Positions 16,401 through 64,000 of a stretch of 64,000 nt of DNA are shown piece by piece. The first letter of the stretch is position 1. Each line of letters opens with the position of its first letter. The stretch lies in contig JAMXDE010000069.1 of assembly GCA_026770025.1 (NCBI GenBank), forward strand, positions 124,001 to 188,000, read 5' to 3'. A program made the position numbers and the translations under genes. The notes under the pieces are model-generated. The model saw only the letters and a list, made by a program, of their open reading frames with translations. It was not told the DNA's origin and made no database searches. The stretch is from Craspedostauros australis (taxonomy: Eukaryota > Bacillariophyta > Bacillariophyceae > Mastogloiales > Achnanthaceae).

Positions 16401-16630
16401 GTGGCCGTCGGGCTGCTGGTTGGCGCCTCCGTGTCCTTGTTATTTTTGTTGCCCTCCTTGTCTTGCTTGTCGCCGTCGCCATCGCCAGCCTTGAGGGTAC
16501 GGGTGGCTTGCATCATGACGTGAAGCTCTTCGGTCTGACCCACGGCTCTGCTGCCACGCAGCACGGCCTCCGTTGAGCCCACATGGGCGAGGAGGAGCGC
16601 GCTGAGGATGGCCGCCTTGATCTTGAACAT
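13424..16630 (-). CDS. Secreted PTSAPT-repeat, cysteine-repeat protein
   Basis: A 1,068-aa extracellular or cell-wall-type protein. Start at 16630 (MFKIKAAILSALLLAHVGSTEA) gives a signal peptide. After an acidic linker comes roughly 240 residues of PTSAPT/PTAAPT repeats, likely a glycosylated rod. Then come two homologous modules. Each opens with a unit of about 110 residues (ITICNPDD..., QSICLTTPGD...) and is followed by Cys-pair repeats of the form ACxGxxxC spaced about 30-40 residues apart, which suggests a repetitive beta-solenoid. A shorter PSxxPS linker separates the modules. Such PTSAPT proteins are typical of diatoms (established knowledge). Role in wall, adhesion or surface coat is inference. 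The leader on the minus strand is again AC-rich. Confidence 0.88.
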   Translation of the reverse strand: MFKIKAAILSALLLAHVGSTEAVLRGSRAVGQTEELHVMMQATRTLKAGDGDGDKQDKEGNKNNKDTEAPTSSPTATPGMPTAAPTSAPTSAPTSVPTSAPTATPGMPTAAPTPTPTSVPTSAPTSAPTSAPTSAPTLAPTSAPTSAPTSAPTSAPTSAPTSAPTSAPTSAPTSAPTSAPTSAPTSAPTSAPTSAPTATPGMPTAAPTSAPTSAPTSAPTSAPTAPTAAPTSAPTSTPTSAPTSAPTSAPTSAPTSGPTSAPTSAPTSGPTSAPTSAPTSGPTSAPTSAPTSAPTSAPTSAPTSAPTAFDATIITICNPDDSGGATVGDIKTLICNRDKASCRQAILAVRGLPDLQTFFACAGDGTSEGASRTLFNRFASNPDLSQQLEMAFSAGTQFVTAVGGNSIMATCDSIPGATCCATNSDCTSTSDGTYMTVALNSCVGLSSCGGMGPNAIILQSSCTGLIACTSMNANDSTVVASGVTFVGEVACTTVQSCTLLGFNSYGDVIVQNGACVGTNACDGVGTRLLQTTAGRVVANINIGRNACNNAKSCNRAHSSSSGGAKIGGSLSIEDGACVGNNACENLANSDLMTTDVVVEADACSGTETCKGCVIDNCPSPLNQVYVISNAALACPKDTMGNPTGAAVSSFCVSRADRPTECPTFAPTPLMSDVPSVLPSELPSLGPTRTPTTSPSDLPSVLPSQGPSNIPSVLPSDGPTINPTDAPTINKTTLQSICLTTPGDVDGGFTDAPVVLCDDDMGVCSNFVNAIESLPDNKDRLVKSIFGCEDGGSITYEVAQRRFDTIKNDPSAITAILGALEGSGIILTGTVTQLVTPCGSSCCQSGACSISGGAGVITITPDSCSGTMSCTNLGADAIILGSCLGMNSCTGLGSYSAPPNPDAITGHTIIGPAACTNSNGCEDLGRNIYGNIRIERAACNGVDSCKGMGERVEQPMMVVTPVLADIIVQEEGCQGQRSCEAVHSGPGKTAGSLNIGVGACMSVDSCNGAASANTAVDDLVIADGVCMTSDSCKDCVATDMCVGDPGQTYTISNPITDCPTVNSGACTSS
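15709..16432 (-). repeat. Coding minisatellite for PTSAPT repeats
   Basis: A tandem 12-bp-type array (plus-strand unit gttggtgcggat/gtcggtgccgag) encoding PTSAPT units. Three slightly longer units (PTATPGMPTAAPT) are interspersed, showing higher-order duplication. The array is likely to vary in length between alleles. Confidence 0.93.
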
Positions 16631-17666
16631 CTTGGCTGTTGTTTGGTGCCTGTATGAGGTAGGTAGCGAGGATTGGTGCATGTGGTGGAAGGGGAAGAGC
16701 AAGATTTGTGTCAGGAGTGGGTGGTGGGTCAGTTGTTGTGTGTTGTTTTCCGAACTTGGGGTTTTCATCATTTTCGGGATCCATCTCGGTCGTGGATGTG
16801 GTCACGAGTCATCGAGTCCCGATGGACACAGATCGCTGACGCACACCAACATCACTCAATTTGCGAACACAATGTGGTAACCACGAGGAGGGACGAGTTC
16901 CCATGCTTTCGTTGGACACTGGTCTGCAGAGCAGCGGGCATCGACTGCTTCCTTCGCAACGAGGTGCTGTTGCGGTGGTCGTGGCAATGAGCGCACCAGT
17001 AGACGAGGAGGGAGGCGTCGCGCACAAGACGGAAAGGCGTCCTTGTTGGCCAGTGGTCGTATTGCACCATAATCCCCATGGCCATTCATCACGCTGCGTC
17101 GTCCAGTGTGTATCACCGTGTCATGATGCAACGGCACCGTGCGCAGTGCTCTGTTTGAGTCTGCTTGCGTTGCACTCACCTCTCAGTTGCTGCTGTTGAT
17201 CGGTTGGCTGCTTTTGATCACTGTTTGTGATGCTCGGTTGGTTGGTTTGCTTGTGATCCTGCCGGTTTGTTAGTGCACCGGATTCTGTTGGGAAGCTCGT
17301 TTCTCTGTGCCGCAGAAGCGATTTCGGCTGAGACGAGCCGTTCTCATCGCACGCGATGTTGTTCCTTTTGGTTGATCTTGCTGGTGCTCAACCGAGGACG
17401 AGTCGCGCCAAAAATGGGAAGACAAGCGCCAAACATCAAACCGAAATTTGTCGTCGTCAGCCAGCCGGTGCAAAAAACGCAACGGCAGAGCCGGCCATCC
17501 ACAAAAACTCGAGCCAATCAATCTCACTCGGGTGAGTCGACATGTCCGCAAGGGAACATCAGAGAATCAAGTCGAAGTTCTCTCTCTCTCTCTCTTCGAT
17601 CCAGATTGCTCTCCAACTGATTGCATACTATTCTACTATTACTCATACAAACAACATGCCATCTTA
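16631..17666. other. Upstream region of the PTSAPT gene, no supported gene
   Basis: Open frames on both strands (for example 16861-17199, +) lack recognisable domains. A (CT)n run lies at 17579-17596. The transposon terminal repeat begins at 17667. Confidence 0.5.
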
Positions 17667-39623: not shown

Positions 39624-42068
39624 CTATAATCTCTTTACTAGCCCTTTTCTCTGTGTCGTCGGCGTCGACAAGCTCACCTTGATGAATCCAGTAGCCCGCG
39701 ACACTTTCGTTGCTGCCCGCGGCTCGTACCCCAATCCCATAACCTTGGCGATGAAGCGGAACCGCACGCGCGGTTCAAACGTCCGCGGCACGAACTCGAC
39801 CAACGTGCCGTGATCCGGCAGGAACATGGTATGGATGTTGCCGGCGCCATGCACGGCGAACAGGATATCCGTCTGCGCGATCTGACGTATCTGATCGGCG
39901 ACGGACATGGTCTCGAAGCACACGATATCGACGGTGTGATCGGGCACGAGCGATCGGATGTACTCGATGTCGGCGGTTTCATTCACGAGCGTGCGATCCG
40001 TCATGCCGTTGCTGCGGGGATGGGCCATGTAATCGCGTCGAATCAGGAACGTGGCGCGCTTGTTGTACGTGTTGGAACGCTTGATGTTCAATTTGTCGAG
40101 GACGAAGTCGCGGAACTGGTGCAGGTACGATTCGCCTTCGCACGACGTGGCCCACGAGATTGCCTTGACGCCTTCGTCGCCCAAGGCCGAAGCGGTGTTG
40201 ACGACGATGGCGTTGGACAGGACCTCGTTGTCAGGGAGCTGCTTGAGGTAGGTGACGTCGTCAAAGATGGCCTCCCACATTTCATCGATGCTGGATCGCG
40301 CGTGACCGTCCAGAAAGACGATGCGATGTTGGTCGACCTGAAATTTTTGCATGACGACGAAGGTGTTGTATATCTTGGATATGCCCATGCAGGGATTGGC
40401 ATAATCCCCGCGATCGACGAAGAGATGGGTGCGGGTGGGATGCAGATGCAGTCCCGCATCCTCCAACGCTTCGCTGTTGCCAGTGTCAAGCTCGGCCAGC
40501 GGCTCATCGACCTCGGCGGCCTCCGTGAATGTCTTGATGGCACCAGCCAACCTCTTCTGCTCCATGAATCCTCCGGGAATCGGCTGTTGCAACAGAACGG
40601 CGCCTTCACTGAACCCCAGCGTCTCCTCCTCATTCAGACGCCCCGCGACCTCGTTCACATCCTCACCACCTTTCGAACCCCGCACGTAATCGGGACGAAC
40701 CCGGATGGTGCCGAGCTGGCACGATCTCCATCCGATGGATGCGTGCGCGATGCAACGGCCGTGATTCTCCAGAATGAAGCCCACGCTGTCCGATCCAAAG
40801 AGCTGGCTGCAGGTGAGACGCCGCCGCCTGCTTTTGGGTTGGGGACCAGCAACGATTTGCGGTGCCAAAGCGGCAGCCTCGGACCTGTCCTTGCCAGGCT
40901 TGGCGATGATGTGCGTGACCGCGAGATGCGCGACGTGGTAGTGTTCGGCTTGCAGGACTTGGTATTGCAAGGTGGACAAACCGCTGGTGACGTCGTCATT
41001 GTTTGGTTTGTTCGGCACATTCGATGGCAGGGTCGGTTTGGATTCTGCGGAAGATTGCGTCGCATGAAAGGCATGGCCCACGAAGGCTTGATGAAAACGC
41101 TTCGTCGTGCGCAATACCCGCTGCGCCATGTTGTCGGCCTGCTGCGATCCATCCTGCAGGGTGTTGGAAAATCCATTGACATTGACAAACGTAGCGATGG
41201 GAAAGAGGATGGGACCATCGGCGACATCGAGAGACGAGGAAAACATGACCGCGTCCGTCGATTGCTCACTCTGCGTGACGATCCATGCCTTGTCGTCTTC
41301 CAGCAACTGCGTGGGTCTGTCACGGAAGAAGTAGCCAAACAACGCCGATGCCTTCGACGGAAGATGGTGCACGTCATGCAGGATGATGTAATCCAGATCG
41401 CACAGCCTTCGTTTCTGCACGCCGTAATCGTAGCCGATGTTCATGAGCAGACCCTTGTTGAAGGGCAGATCCGTCTCGGCGGATTGTTCCACCACGATGA
41501 CTTGGGCGATCTTGACCAGCGCCGCTGGGAGCAGGGCCGTCATGGATTGCAGCCAACGCTCCAGCAGCTGTCTCTCATTGCCACCTTCCGCCGGCGACGC
41601 CGCCCGTATCGCAACGATGATGACAGGTCGGTAGGCGTACTGCATCGCAACGCCGACATTGACCATGTTGCAGCGCGGTGTTTCCCACCCCGCTCCTGTG
41701 TACACCTCCGTGTCGACCTCTGCGGGCGTTGCATCCACCGATTCATCGTCGGAACGTCCTTCATCTCCCATCGGCGCGTACTGCGTCGCTGCATCCACAA
41801 TGACCGTTGGCAGTCTCGAAATTGGTGCCTTCTTTCGCATTCGGAACAGTGCTGCGTGGGGTTGCTGCGCGCTGTGCGGACCAGCGCTTGGCTTGCTCTT
41901 GGCTTTGGCCTGCTGTTGGGCAGTGCCACCATCCTTCGTCGTCGTCGTCGTCGTTGTCGCTTTCTGGTCCATGGTCTCCAGCTTGAACACGAGAATCGCC
42001 GTGACGATCAGCTGAAAGAAGGCAGCGACCAGCAGCACCTGCATCGTTCGTGACATGCCCTTGTTCAT
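39624..42068 (-). CDS. GT7-GT61 double glycosyltransferase, type II Golgi protein
   Basis: An 814-aa protein. Residues 9-30 are a signal anchor (MQVLLVAAFFQLIVTAILVF), followed by a Lys/Thr/Ala stem. Residues about 145-320 resemble the beta-1,4-galactosyltransferase (GT7) fold: VIIVAIR, VVEQSAETDLPFNKGLLMN, YIILHDVHHLP (about 226-236) and FVNVNGFSN (about 293-301). The metal-binding DVD of GT7 is DVH here, and the GW-GEDDD block is not conserved (LQDGSQQADNM). Residues about 545-800 resemble GT61 (DUF563/EOGT-like): RIVFLDGHARSS, FLIRRDYM, FAVHGAGNIHTMFLPDHG (about 736-753), VEFVPR. A Cys-containing stretch (410-460) joins them. This suggests one Golgi polypeptide with two transferase modules, the first perhaps inactive or with altered metal use. 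No intron is seen. Confidence 0.83.
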   Translation of the reverse strand: MNKGMSRTMQVLLVAAFFQLIVTAILVFKLETMDQKATTTTTTTKDGGTAQQQAKAKSKPSAGPHSAQQPHAALFRMRKKAPISRLPTVIVDAATQYAPMGDEGRSDDESVDATPAEVDTEVYTGAGWETPRCNMVNVGVAMQYAYRPVIIVAIRAASPAEGGNERQLLERWLQSMTALLPAALVKIAQVIVVEQSAETDLPFNKGLLMNIGYDYGVQKRRLCDLDYIILHDVHHLPSKASALFGYFFRDRPTQLLEDDKAWIVTQSEQSTDAVMFSSSLDVADGPILFPIATFVNVNGFSNTLQDGSQQADNMAQRVLRTTKRFHQAFVGHAFHATQSSAESKPTLPSNVPNKPNNDDVTSGLSTLQYQVLQAEHYHVAHLAVTHIIAKPGKDRSEAAALAPQIVAGPQPKSRRRRLTCSQLFGSDSVGFILENHGRCIAHASIGWRSCQLGTIRVRPDYVRGSKGGEDVNEVAGRLNEEETLGFSEGAVLLQQPIPGGFMEQKRLAGAIKTFTEAAEVDEPLAELDTGNSEALEDAGLHLHPTRTHLFVDRGDYANPCMGISKIYNTFVVMQKFQVDQHRIVFLDGHARSSIDEMWEAIFDDVTYLKQLPDNEVLSNAIVVNTASALGDEGVKAISWATSCEGESYLHQFRDFVLDKLNIKRSNTYNKRATFLIRRDYMAHPRSNGMTDRTLVNETADIEYIRSLVPDHTVDIVCFETMSVADQIRQIAQTDILFAVHGAGNIHTMFLPDHGTLVEFVPRTFEPRVRFRFIAKVMGLGYEPRAATKVSRATGFIKVSLSTPTTQRKGLVKRL

Positions 42069-42628
42069 TGCGTTGCTCCTTTGTTTCTGTGTTTCTTTGC
42101 TTGTTTGATATGGATGGATGACAATGGATGGAAATAGATAGATGAAAATGGATGGACGAGTATGGTATGGTATTACTCAAGAGCATGGAAAGCACTCTCC
42201 AACTTATGATCTTCGGAGAGAGAGGCATCACAAGACCACCAAACGTCGCTCGGCGAAGGCGAATCAGCGCGTTTTCTGGGTTGTTCCCAGCTTATTTGAA
42301 CATCACTTTTTCGATCTGTCCGTATGTCACCATGTGTCGCGAGAGATGTCCGAAACGTGCGTCGAACAAACCATGATGAAAGCAGGCGAGACGGTGTGAA
42401 AGATAAACCTACAATAGCTACGGTAGACGTTACGGTTGAATAGATTATATAATATTGTATCATACGCGCTTCCATATTGTAGATTACAAACGATTAGTCT
42501 CCGTTTTATTCCAACGCTGGACGGTCATGGGTCGGCGTCATCTTGGCATGGCACGAGTACGATCTACCTGTGCGTCCCTGTCTGTGCTCATCCTCCAAGG
42601 GAAAGCCATTGCGACGGTTCTGGCCACG
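42069..42628. other. Intergenic region
   Basis: The 560 bp includes the AC-rich leader of the glycosyltransferase gene (minus strand), tggatgga/gatgaaaatgg repeats at 42109-42155 and an AT-rich box (gattatataatattgtatc) at 42443-42461, near the 3' end of the next minus-strand gene. Confidence 0.55.
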
Positions 42629-44195: not shown

Positions 44196-47152
44196 ATGAT
44201 TGCAGTGGAGACGACGATGTCCAGCGAGGCGCAACTGAAGCTGCGGCTCAAGGCCGTGGCCAACCTGCCGGCGAATCAGGTCTGCTGCGACTGCGGCGAC
44301 AAGAAGCCGACATGGGCCTCGCTCATCGTGCCACCGCCGCATGCGCCAAAGCAAAGCCGCGCTGTGGGAGCATTCTGCTGCTTCCATTGCTCCGGCGCTC
44401 ATCGCCGGCTCGGCGTTCACATTTGTTTCGTGCGCAGCGTTACGTTGGATGATTGTGAGTATCATGTATTGAGCATTGGTATCGAGTGTTGGTGTCGAGT
44501 GTTGGTGTCGAGTATTGGTATCGAGGAGAGTATGCTAGAGTTGAGTAGTACTCTCTCTCTCTCTCTAGCGTACTTTTCTTACTGTTCTTTGCAGTGTTCT
44601 GTTGGAGAATCAATGAACTAATATGTCACAATATATCATAATATGTGCTATACTATACTGGTATCCACTCACTTCCTTCCATTTCGCACCTTCTATTCTT
44701 TCTTGCACTTCTGCCTCCAATCTAACTGCAATATCCAGGGAAGGAAAAGGAAGTCATCGCAATGGAACTCGGCGGCAACGAACGCATCAACCAAGCGTTC
44801 GAAGCCAAGTACGAAGCAGGCAATGCTGACGGCACCTTGAAACCGCATGTTCGTTCCAGCCTGGACGAGCGCGATGCCTTCATCAAGGCCAAATATTCGA
44901 AACGCGCCTTCTTTGATCAACGCGCTTACGAGGATATGATGGCGCAAGTCCTGTGCGAAATAGACGACGGAACCTTAGCGCGGCGGACGCAGCAACTGCT
45001 GCAAATGGGCGATGGAGATTCGTCGCATCAGCAGCAACCGCGTCGCAGGGCACAACGCCGCTCTTCCTTGCCCACCTTCTCTCCCGCCGCGAACGATAAC
45101 AGCTACGATGATCTCTTCGCCGGCGAGACGATGACGGACATGTTCTCGGATTCGAAGCGCAACTTGTTTGAAGGCGTCGATGTCATGGATTTCGCGGACC
45201 CCAACGAAAGCACCTGCACCTTTGGCTATGACGACAGCAACGACGGCAACGACAGCGACGCCGCGGTCGACGCGACGAGCCGCAAGACGGCCATGGCGGA
45301 TGTGCAGACGTTTGGTTCCGTCAACGATTCATCCCGCATGATCGAAGTCACGCAGTTCGTGGTACAGGACAATGCTTCGCGCTCGCGCAGAAATAGTCCC
45401 GGCGACATGATGGACAGATCTTCCGGTCACTCGCATTCGAAAGGCACCAGCATGAAACATCAGGTTATGGAATTGAACAAGGCGGCTGCTCCTCGCACGT
45501 CACGACAAACCAAAGGCCGATCGCATCCCGGTATCGCGCGCAGCCAATCCTTTTCCGCTCGCGCGGCGCAAAAGCAACCGCGGCAATCCTCCAAAACCGT
45601 ATCGAAACGTGCGGCATCATCGCGCAACCTCGTGGCATCTACAGGGCATGAGCGCAAGAGGGTCCCGATGCGACGATCTTCGCTTGGCGGCAATAGTCAC
45701 AGCTCCATCACGACGAGCGATCATGGTTCCAACCGCAATCTCAGCACGTCGGCACATCGGTCCGGATCATCGAGTTCGCTCATGCAGCACGATGAGACAG
45801 CGGAACGCGATCAATCGTCATCAAACAACAACAACGATCGATCGCAGGAGATGGACAATGGCAACAACAAGTCATCCCGCTCCTCGAACAGACGGCGCAC
45901 AGATGACAAATCGAGGCGTTCTTCACGACGCACCGTGCCGTTGCGCGACACTTCATCGCACCGATCGCGCTCCCGAAGCGTGCGGGCCAAAGGCCGAACC
46001 GCAAAATCAAGCAATGCCAACGATGGCGTTGAAAACGAAACCGCAGCAACCAGGGTCCCGTCCAAAAGCGCGTCCATGCTGTTGCTGCAAACCCACAGCA
46101 AACATTCGAAGCGCCGCCTAGGATCCGCCCGCCCGCCATCGCGCACCAGCTCCTTCGAGTCGGATGGCACGGATGGCGACGACTGCACGAGTACGGCATC
46201 GTCGCGCAAGTACAGCGGAACCGGCAGCGTATGCAGCAACAGCAACGATTACTTCATCGGTGGCGACGATGACGACGACGATCGCAGCCGATATTCGCGT
46301 GCCTCCACGGGACCCCGATCGCGCAGTCGCAGTCGCCGAGGAGGGCGGCGCCATCATCATGCAGCTGCGAGGATGGTGGTGGAAGCCAACGCAACGGAGC
46401 CGCGCCAACCAACGGAACTCCAAAACACGATGAAGCGAGATCCACGCCATTCGACCCGGCGATTGAAGGAGCGTTCGAAATCTAGGGACGGTATGAGCCG
46501 CAGCACCCGCAGGAGACGAAGCAACGGCGAAGATGGTGCGGAAGCAAGCATGACGGGAGGCAGCGTGAGGCGCACGCCGCGATCTCGCAGTCTTGGAGAT
46601 TCTCAAGATGACCTCTTGCAGGAAAGCCATGTCAGTTTGGAGACGACCAGCAGCACATCCGGAGTTGTGGATGGAGATCCGTCACGCATGGATCGCGCCC
46701 GGCTGCGTCGCAGCCAACGGCATCAGCACAACACTCCCAGCGTGACCAACAACAGCGGCGATGAGAGCAGCGAGCCACTCAACACCGCCAGCAGCGTCAG
46801 CCGACGACGACCGGAACACATGCAACGACAGAACGGCCTTTCGCGAGAAACAAGCAACCAACACTGTTCCCATGATGATTTGGAATTATCGTCCGCGATT
46901 AAGGAGAGGAGAGCACCACCGCAGCGATCGCGTTCCTCCGCCTCGCCCAGCACGATGTTCGGGAATGCAACGGCGGGCCGAGTGAAGAAACGATCCGCGC
47001 TGTCGTCATCGACTATGGAGTGGCTCGCGAAGGAAGACGAGCTGCTGACCGCCAAGCTCAAAAACAACGGGACCGCGCAAGACGCGGCGTCGAAACAAGA
47101 TCAGAGCACATCCGCCGAGACGACGTCCTCCAACAGCTCCATCGAATCATGA
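44196..47152 (+). CDS. ArfGAP-domain protein with long Ser/Arg-rich tail, two exons
   Basis: GTPase-activating protein for Arf-family small GTPases, expected in membrane traffic. Exon 1 (44196-44454) encodes [15 protein letters not shown], then [16 protein letters not shown] with the catalytic Arg in HRRLG. It ends within VTLDD at a gtgagt donor. Exon 2 (44739-47152) resumes with Trp, [20 protein letters not shown] and YEDMMAQV. The junction codon TGG completes the canonical LDxW. The zinc finger has about ten extra residues ([10 protein letters not shown]) between its two CxxC pairs. The 890-aa product ends in about 750 disordered residues rich in Ser, Arg, Asn and Asp, including [14 protein letters not shown] and [11 protein letters not shown]. 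The intron is 284 bp. Confidence 0.92.
44455..44738 (+). other. Intron of the ArfGAP gene
   Basis: A 284-bp GT-AG intron (gtgagt...atatccag), phase 1. It contains repeated gagtgttggtatc/gtcgagtgttggt units (44470-44525) and a (CT)n run at 44551-44567. Confidence 0.92.
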
Positions 47153-48939: not shown

Positions 48940-49489
48940 ATGCAACTTGGATTTCGGCGTGCAGGAGCAGCGTGCAGACAGAGGTACGCAAAAGATGGGT
49001 AGGTACATCGACCATCGTGTTAGATTACATAATATTATATAATACATGAACACTTTAGAATAGGAAGGATACTGTATACAGCGGGAACATTGTATTGGGG
49101 ACCCTCCAGAAAAGTATGGTGCACATGCTCCGTCATGCAAAGACGACACAGTAGATTGCCAGCGTTATCAGAATTCGATGTTGGTCGTGGATACGGGATG
49201 ATGGGTGGTCTGTCATTCGTCAGTCTCAGAGAATGATGTTGAACCACCAACGCATCAACACATCACTTCTTTTCCGAATTTGTTTCTGCCAGAAGCTGAG
49301 AATACAAGGCACATCATTGTTGTGGTCGCAGGTCATACCCTTGCAGAGGACATCATGGATCGAGGTCTGCCTACTTGGACATCACTCGGCCATCGTCGGA
49401 CTTGCGCAATTGATCCAGGCAAACAGAGTGGCAACCATCTCGCAGCAGACGCCTTCGGGAGCCAATCCCAGCGTGCCAATAGACTACCG
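48940..49489. other. Intergenic region
   Basis: Contains an AT-rich box (acataatattatataatac) at 49026-49045, about 90 bp after the preceding stop codon. The frame of the next gene stays open back to 49205, but that part is unlike a signal peptide. Confidence 0.55.
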
Positions 49490-51388
49490 ATGACCCCGAC
49501 AATCAGACCAGCGCTGCGACCAGACTTGAGGCGGCGAACACGCACGTCTCGACCCATTGCGCTGGTTCCTGTCGCGGCTGCGTTGCTGCTTTGCGTTCAT
49601 GCAAGCAGCAGGGTGTCGGCCTTCATGGTCCACTCGCAGTCCTGCCGCGCACAGCCACGATATGCGCAGGCCCATGATGACTCCATCGATGCCGTGGCGC
49701 AGCAATTCCAAGACATGTCGGTGGCAGATATCCAGCAGACGCTCGTTCAGAAAGGTCTGCAATTCGCCGACGACCCATGCGATCAGCCGTTGCAGAAGGT
49801 TCCGGGCTGCGTCGCCGACGTCCGCGTGCGCGCGATCGCCACGGGGCAGACCATCGCAGTCACAGGCACGGCCGATGCTTTGATCAGCCGCGGATTGTTG
49901 GCCGTCGTGGCGCGGTGGATGGAGATGACCACGTTGTCGCAGATACTTGCGCAGGATGCTGCCACGTTGGCGCAGCAGTTGGGAATCTCCGCGGCGCTGT
50001 CGCCGGGACGCAACGATGGCATTGCGAGTATGGTGCGCGTTCTGCAGGATCAGATACGGCAAGACGCGGTGGCGCCGTTGCATGATGCCGCGAATCCAGC
50101 CGAAAGGAGCGAGGCAACGAGCGACAGGCCCAAGGTGGCGCTGCTGTTATCCGGCGGTGTCGATTCCTCCGTCGCGTTGCGGTTGCTGCTACGAGACGGA
50201 TACGACGTCACGCCGTTCTATCTCAAGATTTGGTTGGAGGACGAGTTGGCGCATCTCGGTGAATGTCCTTGGGAGGAGGATGTCAAGGTGTGTCACGCCG
50301 TGTGCGGGCAGGCTGGCATCGGGCTCGTCACGCTGTCGCTGCAGGCCGAGTACAAGAAGCGCGTCATGGACCACACCATCCAAGAGGCAGCGCAGGGGCG
50401 CACGCCCAATCCCGATATCCTGTGCAATTCGCGTGTCAAGTTTGGTTGCTTCCTCGAAACGCTGACGCAGAATCCGGACGTCTACGGCTCCTTCGATTAC
50501 ATCGCCAGCGGCCACTATGCGCAGCTGCAGCACGATGCGACGACGGGCACGCAGCAGCTGTTCCGTGCGCCGGATCCGGTCAAGGATCAATCCTACTTCC
50601 TGTGCACGTTGCGGCAGGACCAGCTCGCCAAAGTCAAATTCCCCATAGGCCATCTCGAGAAATCCAAGGTCCGCGAACTCGCTGACGAATTCGAACTGCC
50701 CAACCGCCACAGACCGGACTCGCAAGGACTCTGCTTTCTGGGCAAGCTCAAATTCAGCGACTTCCTCGAGGCCAATTTGGGAGTCCAGCCTGGATTGATC
50801 CTTGATGCCTTCACCAACGAGACCATCGGACAGCACAACGGCGTCTGGTATCACACCGTCGGACAGCGCAAGGGGATTGGCAATTCGTTGCATCCCTTGG
50901 CAACATCACGCGGTCCATGGTACGTCGTCGCCAAGGACCCTAAGCACAACATCGTCTACGCCAGCAATCAGTACGACGAAGAGGCATTCACGCAAGCGCG
51001 GTCCAAGTTCCAGGTCGAAGACGTGCATTGGATCGACGGTGGTCCACCGCAACAGCATCGGATACATCCAGCCGAGAATGACACGAGCAGTGGCGATGCT
51101 GACAACTTCATAACGAGTACAACCGTTGAGCCATCAACGTATCGATTCGCCATGAAGATTCGCCATGGCCCCCGCTTGGTCAGTGGGTCCGTGCAGTGGG
51201 ATGCATTTCAAGATACCGCAACGATCGAACTGGATCACAAGGACGGTGGCTTGGCACCGGGACAGTACGTCGTCTTTTACGATCCCGAAACAGCGCAGTG
51301 TTTCGGCAGCGGCATCATCAGCGAACGCCATTGGGCGCGGTTCTTGCAAACATTCCAGCAGCGCGACGAAGAAGCGGTTCCTCAGTGA
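49490..51388 (+). CDS. SufE-MnmA fusion: plastid tRNA 2-thiouridylase with sulfur-acceptor domain
   Basis: A 632-aa protein. The start at 49490 (MTPTIRPALR) gives a basic n-region, a hydrophobic core (ALVPVAAALLLCVHA) and RVSAF-MVH, a plastid-import motif. Residues about 65-190 match SufE: VPGCVADVRV carries the sulfur-accepting Cys (about 107), then TADALISRGLLAVV and ISAALSPGRNDGIASM. Residues 215-632 match MnmA/TRMU: the PP-loop LLLSGGVDSSVAL, the catalytic Cys in NPDILCNSRVKF, and the second Cys in DSQGLCFLGKLKFSDFL. GHYAQ, KDQSYFL and YHTVGQRKGIG are also seen. SufE takes sulfane sulfur from a SufS-type desulfurase and MnmA uses it for s2U34 on tRNA, so the fusion would channel sulfur within one chain. 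Confidence 0.92.
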   Translation: MTPTIRPALRPDLRRRTRTSRPIALVPVAAALLLCVHASSRVSAFMVHSQSCRAQPRYAQAHDDSIDAVAQQFQDMSVADIQQTLVQKGLQFADDPCDQPLQKVPGCVADVRVRAIATGQTIAVTGTADALISRGLLAVVARWMEMTTLSQILAQDAATLAQQLGISAALSPGRNDGIASMVRVLQDQIRQDAVAPLHDAANPAERSEATSDRPKVALLLSGGVDSSVALRLLLRDGYDVTPFYLKIWLEDELAHLGECPWEEDVKVCHAVCGQAGIGLVTLSLQAEYKKRVMDHTIQEAAQGRTPNPDILCNSRVKFGCFLETLTQNPDVYGSFDYIASGHYAQLQHDATTGTQQLFRAPDPVKDQSYFLCTLRQDQLAKVKFPIGHLEKSKVRELADEFELPNRHRPDSQGLCFLGKLKFSDFLEANLGVQPGLILDAFTNETIGQHNGVWYHTVGQRKGIGNSLHPLATSRGPWYVVAKDPKHNIVYASNQYDEEAFTQARSKFQVEDVHWIDGGPPQQHRIHPAENDTSSGDADNFITSTTVEPSTYRFAMKIRHGPRLVSGSVQWDAFQDTATIELDHKDGGLAPGQYVVFYDPETAQCFGSGIISERHWARFLQTFQQRDEEAVPQ

Positions 51389-55197: not shown

Positions 55198-56701
55198 TCA
55201 GGAGTTGTCCAGAAGCGACCGACCATCGCCAGCATTGTTGTTGTTGTTGTTGTTGTTGTTTCGATTATCAATCTCCAGAATTCGCTTCACAATCTTTCTG
55301 CCCCAAATCTTGGAACCTTTCCCATCCGGATGCAGGCCATCCACCATGTGCTTGACTTCTCCGCTCGTCGTGTTCTGAAAGATGGACGTCGCATCAAAGA
55401 ATTCGACGGACCGCGTCAAGCTCGCGTAGCACTGCAACCGCTCGTTGATCTCATGTGTGGGTGCGTGGAGGTCCTTGCCTCTGCTGGGCAGGATGGAATT
55501 GATGACGATCGTGGCGTTGGGCCGTTGCATGCGCAGTTCCTCCACGATGGCGATATTGCCCGCGACGACGGCGTCGACGGAGCAGTGATCAGTGCCCAGA
55601 TCGTTCGTGCCGATGAGCAACCACACGATTTTCGTCTGCAGAGTGCCTAGTCCATTATTTCGCAGTCGGAACAGCAAGTTGGAGCACTGCGTTCGAGTGT
55701 GCATATTTGCGATGTGCGAATGGATGGCATGGGAAGTGTGATAGTAGGTGTCGCAAGAACATGGCGCAGGGAAATGGATACGCGTGTGTCAGCATGTACA
55801 TTCGGTGCGGGAACAGTGTCAAACAGAACATAGATGCAGTGCAGCGGACTGGGCATGGTACCATGCGCACTGCCATACTCGCCATTTCCAAACCTCCCAA
55901 CGCACAAATCCCCTCCAGCACAACGCGATACCACAGGCACGCACACGAATGAACAACGCAGATACATCTCGCAATTCCGCTCACCCGTTCCGCGGCGATT
56001 CCCAATACGACGCCGTCCACTTGGGCGCCGTTGTCCATGTTGAAATAATCCTGGAACACCTTAGCGTTGGGCTGGTAGGTGGGGCTCGGTTGGCCGAAAT
56101 CGGTCCCAAGCCAATGTTCCGTGATGGAATCCCCCAGCATCACGACATCCACACCCTCCGCTCCAAACTTCTGCGCCGCGTCCTCGGCATCCGCCTTCGT
56201 CTTTTCGAATGCTTTGTTCCACGGTTTCACCAATTGTTCCATTTGCAGAATGCGCGGCGTCGTGGGATTGAAGCACCTGCAGTCGTTCTCGATGATGGGA
56301 AGACACGACGTGAAATTGGCATCGTCCCAATACAGCTCCATCAACTCCTCAAAGGTCTCACCGGACTCCGTCTCGGCGCACGAGGGCACGAAGACCGATT
56401 CGTTTTCTGGCTCCTTCGACGAAAACACGCCATCCGTCATCGTCATGCTGCCGGCGTAGATGATGCCCACGAGGATGGGCAGCACCACGGTGACCGTCAG
56501 GACGGATGTCACGATGAGTCGGTTGCTGGAGGATTTCCATATCGACAGAGCCGGCGGATTGTCGGTGAAGACGCCGTCGTTGTCGGCACTCTCGCTGTCA
56601 TCATGATCTGGCGGCTCGATCTCCAACACGGAGGTCACCAGCGGTGCCATGTCATCATCCTCATTTTCTGCATCATCATCGGGAGCAAACGCGGGCGACA
56701 T
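55198..56701 (-). CDS. SGNH/GDSL hydrolase paralogue D, type II membrane protein, two exons
   Basis: Exon 1 (55985-56701) encodes an acidic tail sharing DDDMAPLV with paralogue B, a membrane anchor (VTSVLTVTVVLPILVGIIYA), a Cys-containing stem (CLPIIENDCRCFNPTTP) and VVMLGDSITEHWLGTDF. It ends GIAAER at a gtgagc donor; the other three end in GDT or ADT. Exon 2 (55198-55686) gives CSNLLFRLRNNGLG, LLIGTNDLG and DGLHPDG. It closes with a run of nine Asn encoded by (GTT)n at 55231-55260. The intron is 298 bp, phase 0, at the same site as in A, B and C. The product is 401 aa. It is the most divergent of the four and lies 27 kb from the tandem pair. Confidence 0.87.
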
Positions 56702-57230
56702 CTCTTTTGTTGCGCGTTGTGTGCGTGGTGTGTCGTTGTCGTTGTCGTTAGAGATGACGTGTGAGCGCGGATGATTTTAGATTAGTGTGAATTAGTGTGA
56801 ATTAGTGTGGATGAACATGCGTTTGCGATGGCATCATCGTCACCATCGTCGATGCCGACAATCGTGATGGAATTGGCACAATTGGAAGTGGAGAACTGGA
56901 CAGTCTTTGCATTTTAGGTTCCATTTTAATCGTGCTTATGACCCATACCACGACTCAAGTCAAGCGAACCTATGGAGGCAGTCTAGATCGCAGAAATCTG
57001 CATGCATTGGCATGTCTCATTGCATGTCAGCTCCTCGTATTCTGCTCTAAGCTGTTGCTCTATCATATTCTGGTGGCTCTATGGTATATTGCATGATATC
57101 ATATGCTCTACTCTATTTACTATACGACTAGGAATCATGATGTTTGTGAGGGTGTCTTCGCAGAAGTTGGTTGGAAACAGGGTGTCACGAGTCACCAATG
57201 TATTGGAGTCATCCTTTCCTCTCTCTCTCT
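56702..57230. other. Intergenic region
   Basis: Includes the AC-rich leader of SGNH D (minus strand, aacgacaacgacaacgacac) and attagtgtga repeats at 56782-56812. Beyond this nothing gene-like was seen before the hydrolase stop. Confidence 0.5.
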
Positions 57231-57752
57231 CTACTTGGAGCTCGAGAAGTGTGCCAGCGCCATCTTCGAAATGGATTCCGCCACAACTTCCGGTTGCTCC
57301 TCGTAGATCTGGAATGCTGCCTTGGCGATCTTCACGAGCGGTTGCGCATTGATCGTCTTGACGGTGTCCTCACCGACTCGGATGGGACAGATCTTGTCAT
57401 CGATTCCATGCATTACAGTGATTGGGACAGATGCCGATCGGTCCACATTCACGGTCGCGAGAATGTCCCTCGCCTCGTCTCGTGTCAGCCACACCATCGC
57501 GGCGGAGTAGTGCACCGCCATGCTCTGATCGTTCTTGTTGCTGTCGATCTTTGCCACCTCCAAGACTTCCGGCTTGGTCGACGGCGAGAATCCCATCTTC
57601 AAGAACCCCAACGTCAGCAACGGATGCAACCACGTGAGAAGCCACACGGGAAGGATCTTGAAGATCATGGGCCCGCCATTCTTCAACATGGGATGCACAC
57701 CACGGAATCCCGTGCTCGAAAAGAGGAAGCCGGCAGTCGCGGCACGGATATC
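57231..57752 (-). pseudogene. Alpha/beta-hydrolase gene, 3' part, separated by a transposon
   Basis: Encodes the C-terminal 170 residues of an alpha/beta-hydrolase-fold protein: RAATAGFLFSSTGF, a lid-like helical part, then VPITVMHGIDDKICPI, which carries the acid-residue motif (HGxDD). Near the end, where the catalytic His is expected, KAAFQIYEEQPEVV has Ala-Phe instead of Gly-His. It continues the frame of the 5' part at 63016-63438 across the inserted element. The terminal repeat supplies an in-frame ATG directly in front (MDIRAATAG), so this piece could be translated alone. Confidence 0.8.
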
Positions 57753-57767
57753 CATAAAGAGAGATTC

Positions 57768-57865
57768 TGTCTGGGGAGACCAAAAATGGCCATTTTGGGC
57801 TCAGGAGACAAAGTTACCCGGAGGTTCGCCAAAATCCGGTCTGAGGAGACAATTTTCAGTTCCAC
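57768..57865. repeat. Left subterminal repeats of the transposon
   Basis: Three spaced copies related to GGTCTGAGGAGACCA: tctggggagaccaaaa, gctcaggagacaaag and ggtctgaggagacaattt. The same motif recurs at the other end, as expected for transposase-binding sites. Confidence 0.75.
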
Positions 57866-58143
57866 GTGATAAATCTCCACGATAGGATTTTTCGGTCGAA
57901 TACTTCGACTAAAAGAAACTCTGCCAGCTCTTCGTTCTGACATCTTCTCCTCCAAGATTTTCTTCATCGTCATTGTTTCTTCGCTTTCCTCCAGATGGCA
58001 ACAACCCTCCCTCTCCAACCTCCTTGCCTGCTGTGGTTCATTTCATCCCATCATCAACCTCGCACCTCCTTGCTTATCATTCGCAGCATCCCCCATACTG
58101 CCTTCTTCTTCCAGCTTGCCTTCTTCGATACGTCACCTTCATC

Positions 58144-61100
58144 ATGGCATCTTCTCTTCCACCTGATGCTCCCAATGCCAATGACAACTTGCCCACAGCT
58201 TCCACTCCAGTTGCAACGACCGTCCATGGCACCGTCTCTCCATCCCAGCAGCTTCATCCCTTTGGACAAGTTTTGGATGATGGAATGGGTGATGCAGGCA
58301 AACACACCCATGAAGAAGAACGAGATGGCATCTGTGTCAACAGTGATGACGAGGGTGCAGTGCCTACAGTGGTGCCTCCAGATCCTGTTGGCGATTTTGG
58401 AGTCCAACCGTGCTCGCTTCCTGGCTACAGCCATTGCATCGTCCTCCCTCCAAAGAAGGGGAGTAGGGAGATCTCTGTGGAGTGGAAGGTGCTCTCAGCC
58501 TACGAGCATGCAACAAAAGTGACTGTTGGAGAAGCACACAAGCTCGCTCTCCTTCATGCAAAGGAAGAGATTCGTTCACTGCGAACAGCTGTCTTGCAGC
58601 GCTTCCCCAAGAGTCCTCCTGGGTCTCCACCATACGTGCCAACACCCCATGACTTGATCCACGATGTGCTGGGCCCCACATCTCCCATTTTCATCCGTGC
58701 ATTTGGCCCAAGTGGGCTGGGTTTCTCATATCCTGAGTACATGGAGTTCCTCTATGCCATCACATCACAGATGGTGGAAGGCTGCACCGTTCGTCGGCTC
58801 TACGATGGCGGCAACACTACCACGCTTCCCAGCTTTCCCACCAGACAGCACTACGTCAATCTCTGGGACCGTATTCGACGCAATGGAAACCCTGTCTCTC
58901 GGAATGGCCATCGCTTTGTTTGGACCGAATTGGAAAGTGCTTTCAACTTGACGCTTGAGATTCTTTGTCTTCGTCATCGTTGCCCGAATCGGATCGTCAC
59001 ATTGGATGATGACAAGGTCCATTGCAGCAGCCGTGCAGAGAGCAGCTATCTGCTTGGCATGAGACATACTCATGCAAATCGTAATGGGTAAGTGACGAAC
59101 AGCATTGTGTGTTTTGTTGCAGAGGGGTGGCATCTCCATTTCATATTTCAATTCCTCACCCCAGGTCTCCGTCTCGTTTTGGTCTTCTGCATTCCTTCAG
59201 ATTAACCCTGAACACTCTTGTCCAGTCTGCTTCTGGACTTGTTGTGGGGTTGGCTGCTTGCCGAGATGGGTTCGATGACGACACCTATCGGTTGTTCACC
59301 CAACTAAAAGAACCAGATGGTTCTTTTCGAAATCTAACCCTCATGACAGATCGAGGATACAACTGCCACAGCACTACCGCCTTCCTCACTACCAGGGGTG
59401 CCAATCTGGAGGGTACACACATGCGAGCTGGATACCTACCATTCACCTTCGGCCCATCCATTGGCAAGGGTGCACTCCAGATGAATATTGGGAGGAAGGG
59501 GCCAAGGATGGTGCATAGCGCTGTCACCAACAGCATTGGCAAACGACAATTGACATGCTATGGATACCGACTTAACGAACAAACTGTACTTGCACTCTCC
59601 ACAAGATCGAGTGGCTTCGAGTGGGACCTCACCCTCAGCAACGCCAGTGACCAACAAAAGTACCAAGACATGGTGGAGAACAAGCATGGGAACAATCAAA
59701 GATCCCCACACTACCCACACTTCTTCCAAACATTCACTGTCAATCCAACACGATCGTCGGCAGTCAGAGCTGCCATATCCCAAACTCCCCTTGGCACAAC
59801 CGGTGTTGTGGCTGCCGCATCCAAGAATGTCAAACAGCGTTGGGCAGATATGGTGTGGGATCTGCCTGTGGATGGACTCACCTGTGGCCAGGGTGACCAT
59901 CTGTGGTTCGTCCACCGCCGCTTCGCGTTCACGAGCACCTCCACCTACAGCATGATACAGAAGGTGCTTGAAAGCGGAGAGTGGTGCAACACCGACAATG
60001 CCACCATATTCAATCAAACTGCATGGGAGTGCATTGGCCGCTACTTGGGATATGATGTGCTTGGTCGGAAGGCGAAGTACCACAATGCGTTGCAAGCAGA
60101 AAAAGCGAGATTGCGCGCACTTGATTTATACTCCAAACTCACAACTCCCACCTTCGATTCCCGTCATGTTGAAATTGCACTTCTCTCCTCTCTCCGTGAC
60201 GACGCCCCTGAAGAGGATGCCTTCCCTGACAAAGACTTCATCGAACTCATGGTTATGTTCTACCGCAGCAAGGCCCAGCGAAGCAGAGCCACACGATGCA
60301 AAATGCTCCGCACCATCCTCGCTGATGACGACAAGGTTCGACGGCGATTCGTGGCCATCAGCGACGCCTCCCTCAAGAAAGACCTCAAGGCTCGTCTCCC
60401 CAAAACCAATGTGACGAAAATGCCACGAGAGAAGGTTGTGGAGAGATTGGTTGCCCTGGGGATGAAGGAGATCGAGCAGGAGCCCGACCATCCATCCAGT
60501 TTCCAGGCGGGAAGCACCACTTCAGAGTGGATGCACAAGCTTGACCACGACCTCACAACTCTCATGTTACAATCGTGGTTCATGAAGTCGGTTCGGGGCA
60601 AGGCCGGAAAGCTCGCCAAGCTGGGCCACAAAAACGAAGCTCCCCTCATGAAGCAGGCCCTCCACTGTGTTGGAGTGGGCGGCGAGGGAAGGCAAGTGAA
60701 GGCGACGTACCAAGTGGGGGTGGTGCGAAACACCGATGCACCGTACGCCCGCGCCTCCGTCGACTTCCTCGCGATCGTCGGTGATCCAGAGGACGACAGC
60801 GACGATGAAGTCTTTGTTGTGGAGATCAAGACTCGGGCAACGACAGACACAGAAGATCTCGAAAGACGGCACCAGCGGAAGGCCGATTGGGAGCATGGGA
60901 CGGAGGGAAAGAGTCATGTGTTCGTGCATCTCCAAGACGACAAATGGAGGGCATTGTTCGAAAAGAAATCAGAGATGATTCAACTGCTTCATCATGCCTT
61001 CGTCTTTGGGGTGACAGGTGCAATGATTGTAATTGGTACGTTCAAGCATGAAATGGATGGAGCTCCTGCCATGAATTTCGAAAGTCGATTCGTGGTGCTC

Positions 61101-62558
61101 ACTCAAACTGTTCTTGCGTTTCTCCTCTGATCCACTCGATCCCACCTCCTCCTACCATCAGGTGATGCAACCGCTAACACCATAAGATCAATATCCACAC
61201 AATTCAAACCTGATCTACTTCAATCATATGGAATTGTGCTACAAAATCTGTATGAGCTGAAGTTGGAGTTTGCATACGCGGACTCCGCTGCTGCATCCCG
61301 CGAGGCAGCGTCAGGCAAGACCCTGCGAAAGCATCTGAATTCGAAACGCAACCCCCACAGGGGCTCAACCGGGGGGCGACACATTGCGGCATTGACAGAA
61401 GAGGATGTATTCCACCAATTGATGATATGGAAGGCATGCCAGGAACTACCAATGCCGGTGCCAAAGGTTCACACCTTGGTTCCATCGTTTGTAGCTCGTT
61501 GGAATTCATTCAAGGGCGGCTCCGATTTAATCACCAGAATGGTGAGGCAGCACAAGGTGCAGCCGCCATTCGCAACCTTCCAGTGCCAAGCTGTGGTACG
61601 GATTGTGGAAGTCATCCTTCTGTTTCTGCACAAGCTAATGCACTACTGTTGCACAGACGATATCCACACAAACAAAGACCTGGAGAACGCAACGGTGCTG
61701 CAGACCTACCGTGACATGCTGAATCATCGCAGCAGTGTTGCTGATTCGTTGGAAACATTGCGAAGGGCATTCGGAGTCATCGTCGCCCAAGCCGCTGGCA
61801 GCAACAGAGAAGCAGGTGATGACAGCGAATGCGCAAACTGGTTTATTCAGGGAGCAATCAACAACACAGGAGACACAGATTCGGATACAGACAATCAAAT
61901 CTACGATGGTAGACCAACTGTTGAAGGCGAGGAGAGGGACGGAAAGAGCATCCGGAACCTGCTGTCTGGGAATCCAGCTGCCCCAACACCCGCCATGGCT
62001 GCGCTCGAACGACGTCTCCGCACGGGCAGCCATGAGCCCATCTTTTGTGAAAACGTGAAGAAACCCTGCGTCGTATGTGGGGTTGTAACGAAATGGATGT
62101 GCATGCAGTGTCACTTTTTCGCCTGCGTGCCTCCCACTGCAAATCACAAGAGATGGGGAGTTGCAAATGGAGTGCATACCAGCATTTCAATGTCAAATCT
62201 ACGAAAGAAGGCGAACGAACGAATCATTGCAAGCAACACATGTTTCCGAATGCTCCACGGAAGCAACAGATCATGGACAAGGAAGACCAAGGCGGATTAC
62301 ACTGAGTGGAGTGCGAAGCAACCAGACAGGAAAGGAGGGAAGCGCAAGACTCCATCAGCAGTGCAAACAAGCAAAGATATCCAATCGAGCCAAGGAAGGA
62401 AACGAGCGAAACCCTCATCCCAGACACCTGCTGAGACTTCACCAGCACCACAGAGACGGCGGACGCGCTCGGAGACAACTCCGCAACGACCGCGAACGCG
62501 CGCAGCAGCTCAACAAGGAAAGTACAGCCATGGGAATGGGTCGAGATGTAACATATAG
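58144..62558 (+). CDS. Transposase with piggyBac-like DDD core, embedded YqaJ-type nuclease and C-terminal finger, three exons
   Basis: Exon 1 58144-59087 (MASSLPPDAPN), exon 2 from about 59201 to 61035, exon 3 61162-62558; about 1,391 aa. Intron 1 has a gtaagt donor, and the acceptor at 59200 is preferred over 59164. Intron 2 is gtacgt...catcag, 126 bp; it removes an in-frame TGA and joins IVIG to DATANT. Landmarks: Asp in VTLDDDKVH (residue about 286), Asp in LMTDRGYN (about 365), a YqaJ-like PD-(D/E)XK nuclease with GHKNE (about 790), RASVDF (about 835) and VVEIKT (about 856), then Asp in FKGGSDLI (about 1045), like the GGVD of piggyBac. A finger CVVCG...CMQCHFFAC (about 1227-1250) and a basic tail follow. 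The DDD reading is by analogy and less sure than the nuclease. The N-terminal 120 residues are disordered. Confidence 0.75.
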
Positions 62559-62929
62559 CAAAGTAATAACACACAAACGTCCATCAAATACGGGGTAGTG
62601 AATCGTTCCTGTGAAGAGGCGTGGTCACAAATCATTGTGATGCAAGAGGAAGAACGCTGCGGAACGATCATGTCCTGTGAAGAGCGTGGAGGACATGGAT
62701 AAGCATGCAACGAACATATGTATACGAAGAACTGTGATGAGATGCAAGTGGCTCAATGCATCCAGGAGAAGCATTGAGCCATAGTAAATAGGAGGGCATG
62801 CCAGGATATTGTGAGAAATCGGAAAAAACGATATGAGGGGGGAAAAAAGTGAGCGCGAACAAATAGTTTTAGTCGAGGTGGTCGAAGAAAATGCCATCGC
62901 GATAAAACGTCGCGTTGCTTGATTTTGGT

Positions 62930-63000
62930 CTGAGGAGACCAATTTTGGCACCCCTCGAATCCGCTTGGTCTCCTGAGACAATTTTGGACTTTTATCGTGG
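62930..63000. repeat. Right subterminal repeats of the transposon
   Basis: ggtctgaggagaccaatttt and ggtctcctgagacaattttg, in line with the copies at 57768-57865. Confidence 0.78.
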
Positions 63001-63015
63001 ACGAATTTCTTTATG

Positions 63016-63438
63016 GATATCGGGGAAATCGCGCACGAGCTTCAGGATGGTTTGGGCCGCGTAGGAATGACCCATGAAGAGGATCGGCTTGCTGAGGCCG
63101 ACCCGCGCCGTGATAAGACCCGCGATGTCGCGTTCGATTTCGATGTCGGTGAAATCCGAGGCCGACGGCGATCCCGGCGTGCGACCGCAACCCAGTTGAT
63201 CGAACATCCAGACGGCCATCTTGGTGGACGGCGACGCGGCGAGAAGATCTGCCAAGGGTTCCCAAACTCCGCCGAATTGCTTGCAGGATCCCATCATGCC
63301 GTGCGCGCAAACGAGGTTGATGGTGGTCTCAGCGATGTTATCCGTTCCGATGAGGAGACATCTTGCGAACATGGAGCGTCCTGGACGGACCTCGGTAATG
63401 GCGGAGAAGTGTTCGTGGATCATTGTGGATGTTGTCAT
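63016..63438 (-). pseudogene. Alpha/beta-hydrolase gene, 5' part, separated by a transposon
   Basis: Start at 63438 (MTTSTMIHEHF). The 141 codons carry the oxyanion-hole motif CAHGMMGS, FDQLGCGRTPG and the nucleophile elbow FMGHSYAAQ with the Ser at about residue 125. The frame runs into the element at FPDI and stops after a few transposon-encoded residues (HKEIRPR). Together with 57231-57752 it makes about 313 residues, the normal length for a single-domain alpha/beta hydrolase. The insertion falls between the nucleophile helix and the lid, so neither half would be expected to work alone. Confidence 0.82.
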
Positions 63439-64000
63439 TTTTGCTGTTGGTGGTTGTTTGTATAATATAATATTCCTCTGTTCCGAAATGATTTCCACTT
63501 ATCTATTTTATCATCGGTTCGACACCGTGTCGTGGTGGCCGACTTTGGGAGCTGCGGGAGACCAATTTCCCAGTCGCCTCCCACCCTGGTCTGACGCATC
63601 CTTGTTGACCTTTGGTACCCATCGCAGTATCATCAATAGTTGATGTACCAATGTATGTAGATACCATTTAAACCATACCATAAAACAGAGGACAGCATCT
63701 CCACATTTAGACTGCTTGTCCGGCGCCATGTCTCCACGTTTCTATCATTGAAACACTGTGCAAGAGTTGGTTCGTGTGCTTTCACTTGTTCGAGTGCTTG
63801 GAAGGTTAATTCTTGGTGTGACGCCACACTCTGTTCCGTAAGTACAAACCGTCCTCCAGTTCCACAGACGAAATAGAACACTTGGCAACATGCAAAGAAC
63901 GACGCAATGACAAAATTACGAAACATCGATTTTCTATTTGACATTTTATTTGTGTTCACAAGTACGCAATCGATATTTGTTTGAAAGGAAACGTGAGAAC
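63439..64000. other. Window end
   Basis: Contains the hydrolase leader, an AT-rich box (tataatataatattcc) at 63460-63475 and one weak minus-strand frame (63633-63959). Confidence 0.5.
63633..63959 (-). CDS. Possible small secreted or anchored protein
   Basis: A 108-codon frame whose N-terminus (FRNFVIASFFACCQVFYFVCG) could be a signal or anchor segment after a short basic stretch (MSNRKSM). The rest is ordinary soluble sequence with two Cys. No family recognised and no supporting neighbour. It may be a 5' exon or chance. Confidence 0.25.
   Translation of the reverse strand: MNTNKMSNRKSMFRNFVIASFFACCQVFYFVCGTGGRFVLTEQSVASHQELTFQALEQVKAHEPTLAQCFNDRNVETWRRTSSLNVEMLSSVLWYGLNGIYIHWYINY

Follow-up and report, generated by a model that had tools for sequence, protein, structure and literature searches.

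In a 64,000-nucleotide stretch of the diatom Craspedostauros australis (contig JAMXDE010000069.1, positions 124,001 to 188,000; hereafter the window), we uncovered an insertion that is well supported as a single-gene DNA transposon, with inverted ends, near-palindromic sites at its termini and one long open gene. We favor, with a probability of about 0.5, a reading of its protein as a piggyBac-like DDD transposase whose insertion domain has grown from approximately 62 to approximately 650 residues and holds a nuclease of the lambda-exonuclease-like PD-(D/E)XK type. This would be an unusual transposase design, provided that the sequence evidence, weak for either half, is borne out.

The insertion is apparent from the host gene that it interrupts: reading positions 56500-64000 in six frames reveals a minus-strand alpha/beta-hydrolase gene split by a long plus-strand gene, with its two halves on the flanks. 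If the flanks are joined such that one GATATC is kept, a continuous hydrolase frame of 332 amino acids is restored (Pfam Abhydrolase_1, E = 4.5e-13), the join falling between RDFPDI and RAATAG in the protein. This restored frame, along with the stop-free stretches of 392, 681 and 475 codons that underlie the transposon gene, places the element beyond chance, and since the host frame is intact on both sides, the insertion, 5263 bp in length between 57753 and 63015, appears to be young. These ends, namely the element minus its flanking GATATC copies, are those given by the first-pass annotation of this DNA, and its identification of a DNA transposon is likewise borne out by the inverted ends, the restored host frame, the single three-exon gene and the terminal near-palindromes.

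At the outer edges, GATATCCATAAAGA (57747-57760) and TCTTTATGGATATC (63008-63021) form perfect 14-bp inverted ends, composed of the palindrome GATATC and CATAAAGA. Past these, the first and last 200 bp align with a score of 126.5 (300 mononucleotide shuffles: mean 74.6, standard deviation 7.4, maximum 106.5), with the similarity spanning approximately 160 bp; DNA folding of the left end gives an uninformative z of -1.82. Both junctions and the empty site read GATATC and TTAA is found at neither junction, so that a target other than TTAA, as had been claimed, is supported for this one insertion. Since GATATC reads identically on both strands, a duplication of TA, ATAT or GATATC would fit, as would no duplication at all if four more bases are assigned to the element. 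Further inward, the two terminal 100 bp contain five near-palindromic 12-mers of the form GTCTnnnnAGAC, allowing at most two mismatches, whereas the interior of the element has none and the rest of the window (58725 bp) has two. In 5000 dinucleotide shuffles, the ends never reach five (the maximum is two), a test that is post hoc, the motif having been chosen from these same ends. The outermost near-palindrome occupies bp 17-28 counted from the left tip; in piggyBac, going by the accessible text of PMC7351741, a dimer of the cysteine-rich domain (CRD) binds a palindrome at bp 17-33.

The gene is predicted to be spliced from three exons into a protein of 1391 amino acids, which reproduces the earlier proposal of one plus-strand gene with about 1,391 codons. 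The model is one of several, as the frame also stays open with the intron-1 acceptors 59123 and 59165 and with several alternative donor/acceptor pairs at intron 2. Given that intron 2 preserves the frame and contains one stop, its retention would result in a shorter product, which would possess the first two Asp residues and the nuclease motifs and lack the third Asp and the Cys finger. All the motifs named in the first pass are present in the full-length protein (TLDDDK at 286, TDRGY at 364, GHKNE at 790, SVDF at 834, VVEIKT at 854, KGGSD at 1044, CVVC at 1229 and CMQC at 1240) and occur in the order claimed, i.e., D288, D365, the nuclease set E794, D836 and E856-K858, D1048, and finally CxxC..CxxC.

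Judging from these motifs, the transposase probably resembles and works like that of piggyBac. TLDDDK, TDRGY..GTHMR and PSFVARWNSFKGGSD of the element match up with LTIDEQ, ITCDNW..GTVRS and KPQMVMYYNQTKGGVD of piggyBac, and a relaxed piggyBac signature (three Asp residues, the second followed by GTxR and the third at YN..GGVD) is present in order and spacing. The first and second Asp are separated by 77 residues (78 in piggyBac, 72 in piggyBat) and the second Asp and the GT by 21 (23 and 21, respectively), whereas the distance from the second to the third Asp is 683 residues versus 101 in piggyBac. When the whole protein was shuffled 20000 times, the pattern D1..D2..GTxxR (form A2) was encountered 232 times, a looser form of it 384 times and P..WNxxxGGxD 11 times; the last, as written, matches piggyBac and not piggyBat, and the joint rarity of these patterns is overstated, as they were formulated after inspection of the protein. 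A Cys finger, CxxC-x7-CxxC-x4-C, follows near the C-terminus, its pattern CxxC..CxxCx4C being seen in 0/20000 such shuffles.

In piggyBac, the available portion of PMC7351741 places a break in the RNase H fold after strand 5, where an insertion domain spans residues 372-433, and the same place is used in other insertion-domain transposases. The counterpart in our element would extend from approximately 390 to approximately 1039, with the candidate nuclease within it. Here, G-x3-E, S-x-D and E-I-K at residues 790-858 occur in the lambda exonuclease order with all four catalytic positions intact. Searches of NCBIfam with two cuts of this region recovered the lambda-exonuclease family TIGR03033 as the first and sole match (E = 0.03 and 0.034), and PHROGs ranked the RecE-like exonuclease phrog_434 first (E = 0.099 and 0.032), the stretch matched being D836..K858 each time. 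An hhalign comparison with lambda exonuclease and 12 relatives pairs D836 and the ExK with lambda residues, at a score reached by 4/200 shuffles. These three lines share one stretch and are not independent; together they point weakly, and concordantly, to a lambda-exonuclease-like nuclease. As for the YqaJ-type nuclease of the first-pass annotation, Pfam YqaJ itself (PF09588) came up neither with the whole protein nor with the nuclease pieces, but in NCBIfam and PHROGs families of the lambda-exonuclease type come first at E ~0.03. Other weak matches, namely phrog_30027 (E = 0.16), phrog_21519 (E = 0.25), DUF608 (E = 0.16) and unrelated PDB chains (E >= 0.16), were not used.

Several results weigh against the favored reading, both for the element as a whole and for each half of its protein. 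The element is a single copy, with no second one elsewhere in the 64-kb window, and has no detected relatives: scans of viral contigs returned 0, 22, 3, 44 and 69 pattern stretches, and those of genome contigs 35 and 20, none of which is a relative, and tblastn against plasmids found none either. As the collections scanned were those of viruses, prokaryotes and plasmids, these missing relatives say little on eukaryotes. It is in fact quite possible that this architecture is already catalogued in repeat libraries, and that the element is simply an ordinary member of a group already in algal repeat libraries is an explanation that we regard as plausible, if somewhat short of probable. PiggyBac families have been counted in Tisochrysis and Ectocarpus, as far as the accessible portions of the published counts go; against this, no paper linking piggyBac with a YqaJ or lambda-exonuclease domain, and no report of a nuclease inside the catalytic domain of a transposase, was found in the open literature, a search outside of which Repbase lies.

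For the transposase half, no Pfam or NCBIfam transposase family was found for the whole protein or for a version with the insert deleted. DDE_Tnp_1_7, which detects piggyBac itself at 5e-43, was not reported at E <= 10 for the whole protein, the insert-deleted protein or pieces thereof, the HMMER filters being such that weak matches are dropped. A hidden Markov model (HMM) built from piggyBac and piggyBat is not significant on the insert-deleted protein (163/2000 shuffles reach its score), with 63/2000 for the piece with the third Asp, 402/2000 for that with the first two, and no report for the full protein. Likewise, hhalign to piggyBac pairs the GGVD stretch only (E = 0.13), and the Cys finger fits zf-UBP, its best named match (E = 0.031; HDAC6, E = 0.36), at least as well. 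Hence, of the piggyBac relation claimed in the first pass, the motif order and spacing stand and the profile support does not; as the motifs line up but the profile tests fail, we state a likeness and assert no membership. One could instead posit a DDD/E transposase of another, possibly unnamed superfamily, still moving by cut-and-paste, in which the short piggyBac-like motifs are convergent. The failure of DDE_Tnp_1_7 in both suitable tests (whole and insert-deleted protein), the HMM shuffle test and the junctions without TTAA are in its favor. Nevertheless, we hold it to be rather unlikely in light of the three piggyBac-type motifs in the right order at near-equal spacings, and of a near-palindrome whose distance from the tip equals that of the piggyBac CRD site. 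The profile searches, which had been named as a test, put D288, D365 and D1048 in no other fold.

For the nuclease half, every match is under the curated cut-offs (14 bits versus 68), sequence searches of the PDB name no nuclease, and a control stretch in the hhalign comparison (residues 461-690, 1 of 11) scores 20.73 versus 20.82 for the nuclease stretch. A single-sequence AlphaFold model of the 176-residue nuclease piece has a predicted local distance difference test score (pLDDT) of 38.9, and Foldseek with this model returned 61 matches at E <= 10 and none at 1e-3; the model orders the strands near D836 and E856 in a way that fits PD-(D/E)XK, but it is untrustworthy and we give this no weight. 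These weak scores, the failed fold and the equal score of residues 461-690, together with the occurrence of GxxxE..SxD..ExK in 155/20000 shuffles of the whole protein, are what one would cite for the alternative that the residues from the second Asp to the third form no more than an enlarged structural or DNA-binding insertion, with the E, D and ExK due to chance or the remnants of a dead nuclease. We judge this to be unlikely, in that NCBIfam and PHROGs both rank lambda-exonuclease-type families first on identical residues, and none of the four catalytic positions has been lost.

Finally, an element of the KolobokE or ISL2EU type is very improbable: while both carry lambda-exonuclease/YqaJ accessory nucleases in the accessible text of PMC9587614 and PMC4482050, Kolobok there duplicates TTAA and has a triad ending in E (here GATATC, with the third residue taken as D1048), ISL2EU has two open reading frames (ORFs), a THAP domain and A|AT|T targets (here one gene and GATATC), and Pfam reports neither THAP nor DDE_Tnp_4 for our protein. 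Strings conforming to [CD]xxH, as in the Kolobok signature C/DxxH, do occur at 634, 877 and 1008 between the Asp residues of the element, without further context.

Returning to the piggyBac-like transposase with an embedded nuclease, we propose that D288, D365 and D1048 would come together as an RNase H-like active site for cutting the element ends and joining them, and that the C-terminal Cys finger might bind the near-palindromes by the tips in the manner of the piggyBac CRD dimer. A staggered cut around the central TA of GATATC would generate a self-complementary duplication, most likely ATAT; such flanks could be resealed without a footprint after excision, and the DDD site would join the ends to a new palindromic site. 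The enlarged insertion domain, of ~650 residues after the fifth strand, would carry the nuclease residues E794, D836, E856 and K858, and the most likely role of this nuclease would be the trimming or resection of the excision ends, be they the transposon flanks or the donor break. It is conceivable that resection favors templated repair, with some breaks being mended from the sister copy such that the element gains a copy. The full version of this proposal is doubtful at present: it would be a separate eukaryotic transposase lineage whose RNase H catalytic core houses an active lambda-exonuclease-like nuclease within its insertion domain, with a single polypeptide excising the element at a TA-centered palindrome and also resecting the ends to steer repair.

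Were the favored reading true, eukaryotic transposases would have acquired nucleases of the lambda-exonuclease type on at least three occasions and in different ways: as a separate ORF in ISL2EU, as a downstream fusion in KolobokE and by insertion into the catalytic core in our element. Such repeated recruitment would render testable whether transposons choose the repair of their own excision break, and a non-TTAA relative of a genome-engineering transposase would have practical use.

Table 1. Coordinates in the window of the transposon, its parts and the interrupted host frame.
Feature	Position	Strand	Basis or remark
Whole transposon	57753..63015	+	Inverted ends, restored hydrolase frame; total length greater by 2 bp for an ATAT duplication and by 4 bp for TA
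Left GATATC copy	57747..57752	.	True duplication TA, ATAT or GATATC
Right GATATC copy	63016..63021	.	Inverted-end comparison
Left imperfect terminal inverted repeat, ~160 bp	57753..57915	+	End alignment
Right imperfect terminal inverted repeat, ~160 bp	62856..63015	-	End alignment
Near-palindrome GTCTGGGGAGAC, bp 17-28 from left tip	57769..57780	+	Motif scan
Near-palindrome GGCTCAGGAGAC	57798..57809	+	Motif scan
Near-palindrome GTCTGAGGAGAC	57839..57850	+	Motif scan
Near-palindrome GTCTGAGGAGAC	62928..62939	+	Motif scan
Near-palindrome GTCTCCTGAGAC	62968..62979	+	Motif scan
Exon 1: N-terminal region, predicted first catalytic Asp D288 (59005-59007)	58144..59087	+	Donor GTAAGT
Exon 2: second Asp D365 (59349-59351), insert, nuclease motifs	59201..61035	+	Donor GTACGT
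Candidate nuclease motif core: GxxxE (E794)..SxD (D836)..ExK (E856, K858)	60624..60830	+	Motifs, NCBIfam, PHROGs, hhalign
Intron 2, 126 nt, in frame, one stop (61128-61130)	61036..61161	+	Six-frame reading, splicing model
Exon 3 including stop codon: WNSFKGGSD with third Asp D1048 (61524-61526), helical region, Cys finger (62067-62126), basic tail	61162..62558	+	Splicing model, motifs
5' part of interrupted alpha/beta-hydrolase frame	63022..63498	-	Six-frame reading, restored frame, Pfam
3' part of interrupted alpha/beta-hydrolase frame	57231..57746	-	Six-frame reading, restored frame, Pfam

Elsewhere in the window, one open frame (49202-51385, plus strand) combines a SufE domain (E = 8.4e-16) with a tRNA 2-thiouridylase-type protein (tRNA_Me_trans, E = 4e-65), thereby fusing a sulfur donor to the enzyme that uses that sulfur. 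A minus-strand frame of 1125 codons (13424-16801) features a degenerate 12-bp tandem array of ~40 copies (15714-16285) and would specify a repetitive protein if coding. An 850-codon glycosyltransferase 61 frame (39624-42176, minus strand) overlaps one of 803 codons (39642-42053, plus strand) for which no Pfam family was found, and an open frame of 808 codons (44726-47152, plus strand) has no Pfam match at 1e-3.

Among known systems, lambda exonuclease, with its catalytic residues numbered D119/E129, and the related YqaJ and RecE share with our element the order GxxxE, SxD, ExK, along with weak library matches; unlike lambda exonuclease, in which the D and E are 10 residues apart, the element has a D-to-E spacing of 20 and its candidate nuclease is embedded in a transposase. 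We know of no nuclease insert in PiggyMac, the domesticated piggyBac of Paramecium. According to the accessible text of PMC12362244, PiggyMac cuts at TA, as the center of GATATC would need here, and thus offers a precedent for TA cutting by a piggyBac relative, though it differs from our element in being a domesticated host protein. Seven bee species also deviate from the piggyBac TTAA target duplication, as described in the available part of PMC10140906. In KolobokE, a lineage from Repbase, the available text of PMC9587614 has the nuclease as a downstream fusion, whereas the candidate nuclease of our element is located between the second and third Asp. ISL2EU of the PHIS superfamily is likewise a DNA transposon with a YqaJ-type exonuclease; in contrast to our element, the exonuclease there is in a second ORF, and it has a THAP domain, an AT duplication and, in that survey, a distribution limited to animals, as far as the accessible text of PMC4482050 goes. 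The piggyBac superfamily (DDE_Tnp_1_7; PDB 6x67, 9c0f) differs from the element in size (594 versus 1391 amino acids), in the distance between the second and third Asp (101 versus 683 residues) and in its target (TTAA versus GATATC), with no profile match for the element, but shares with it the order and spacing of D..D-GTxR..(Y/W)N..GG.D, a candidate C-terminal Cys finger and palindromic sites close to the tips.

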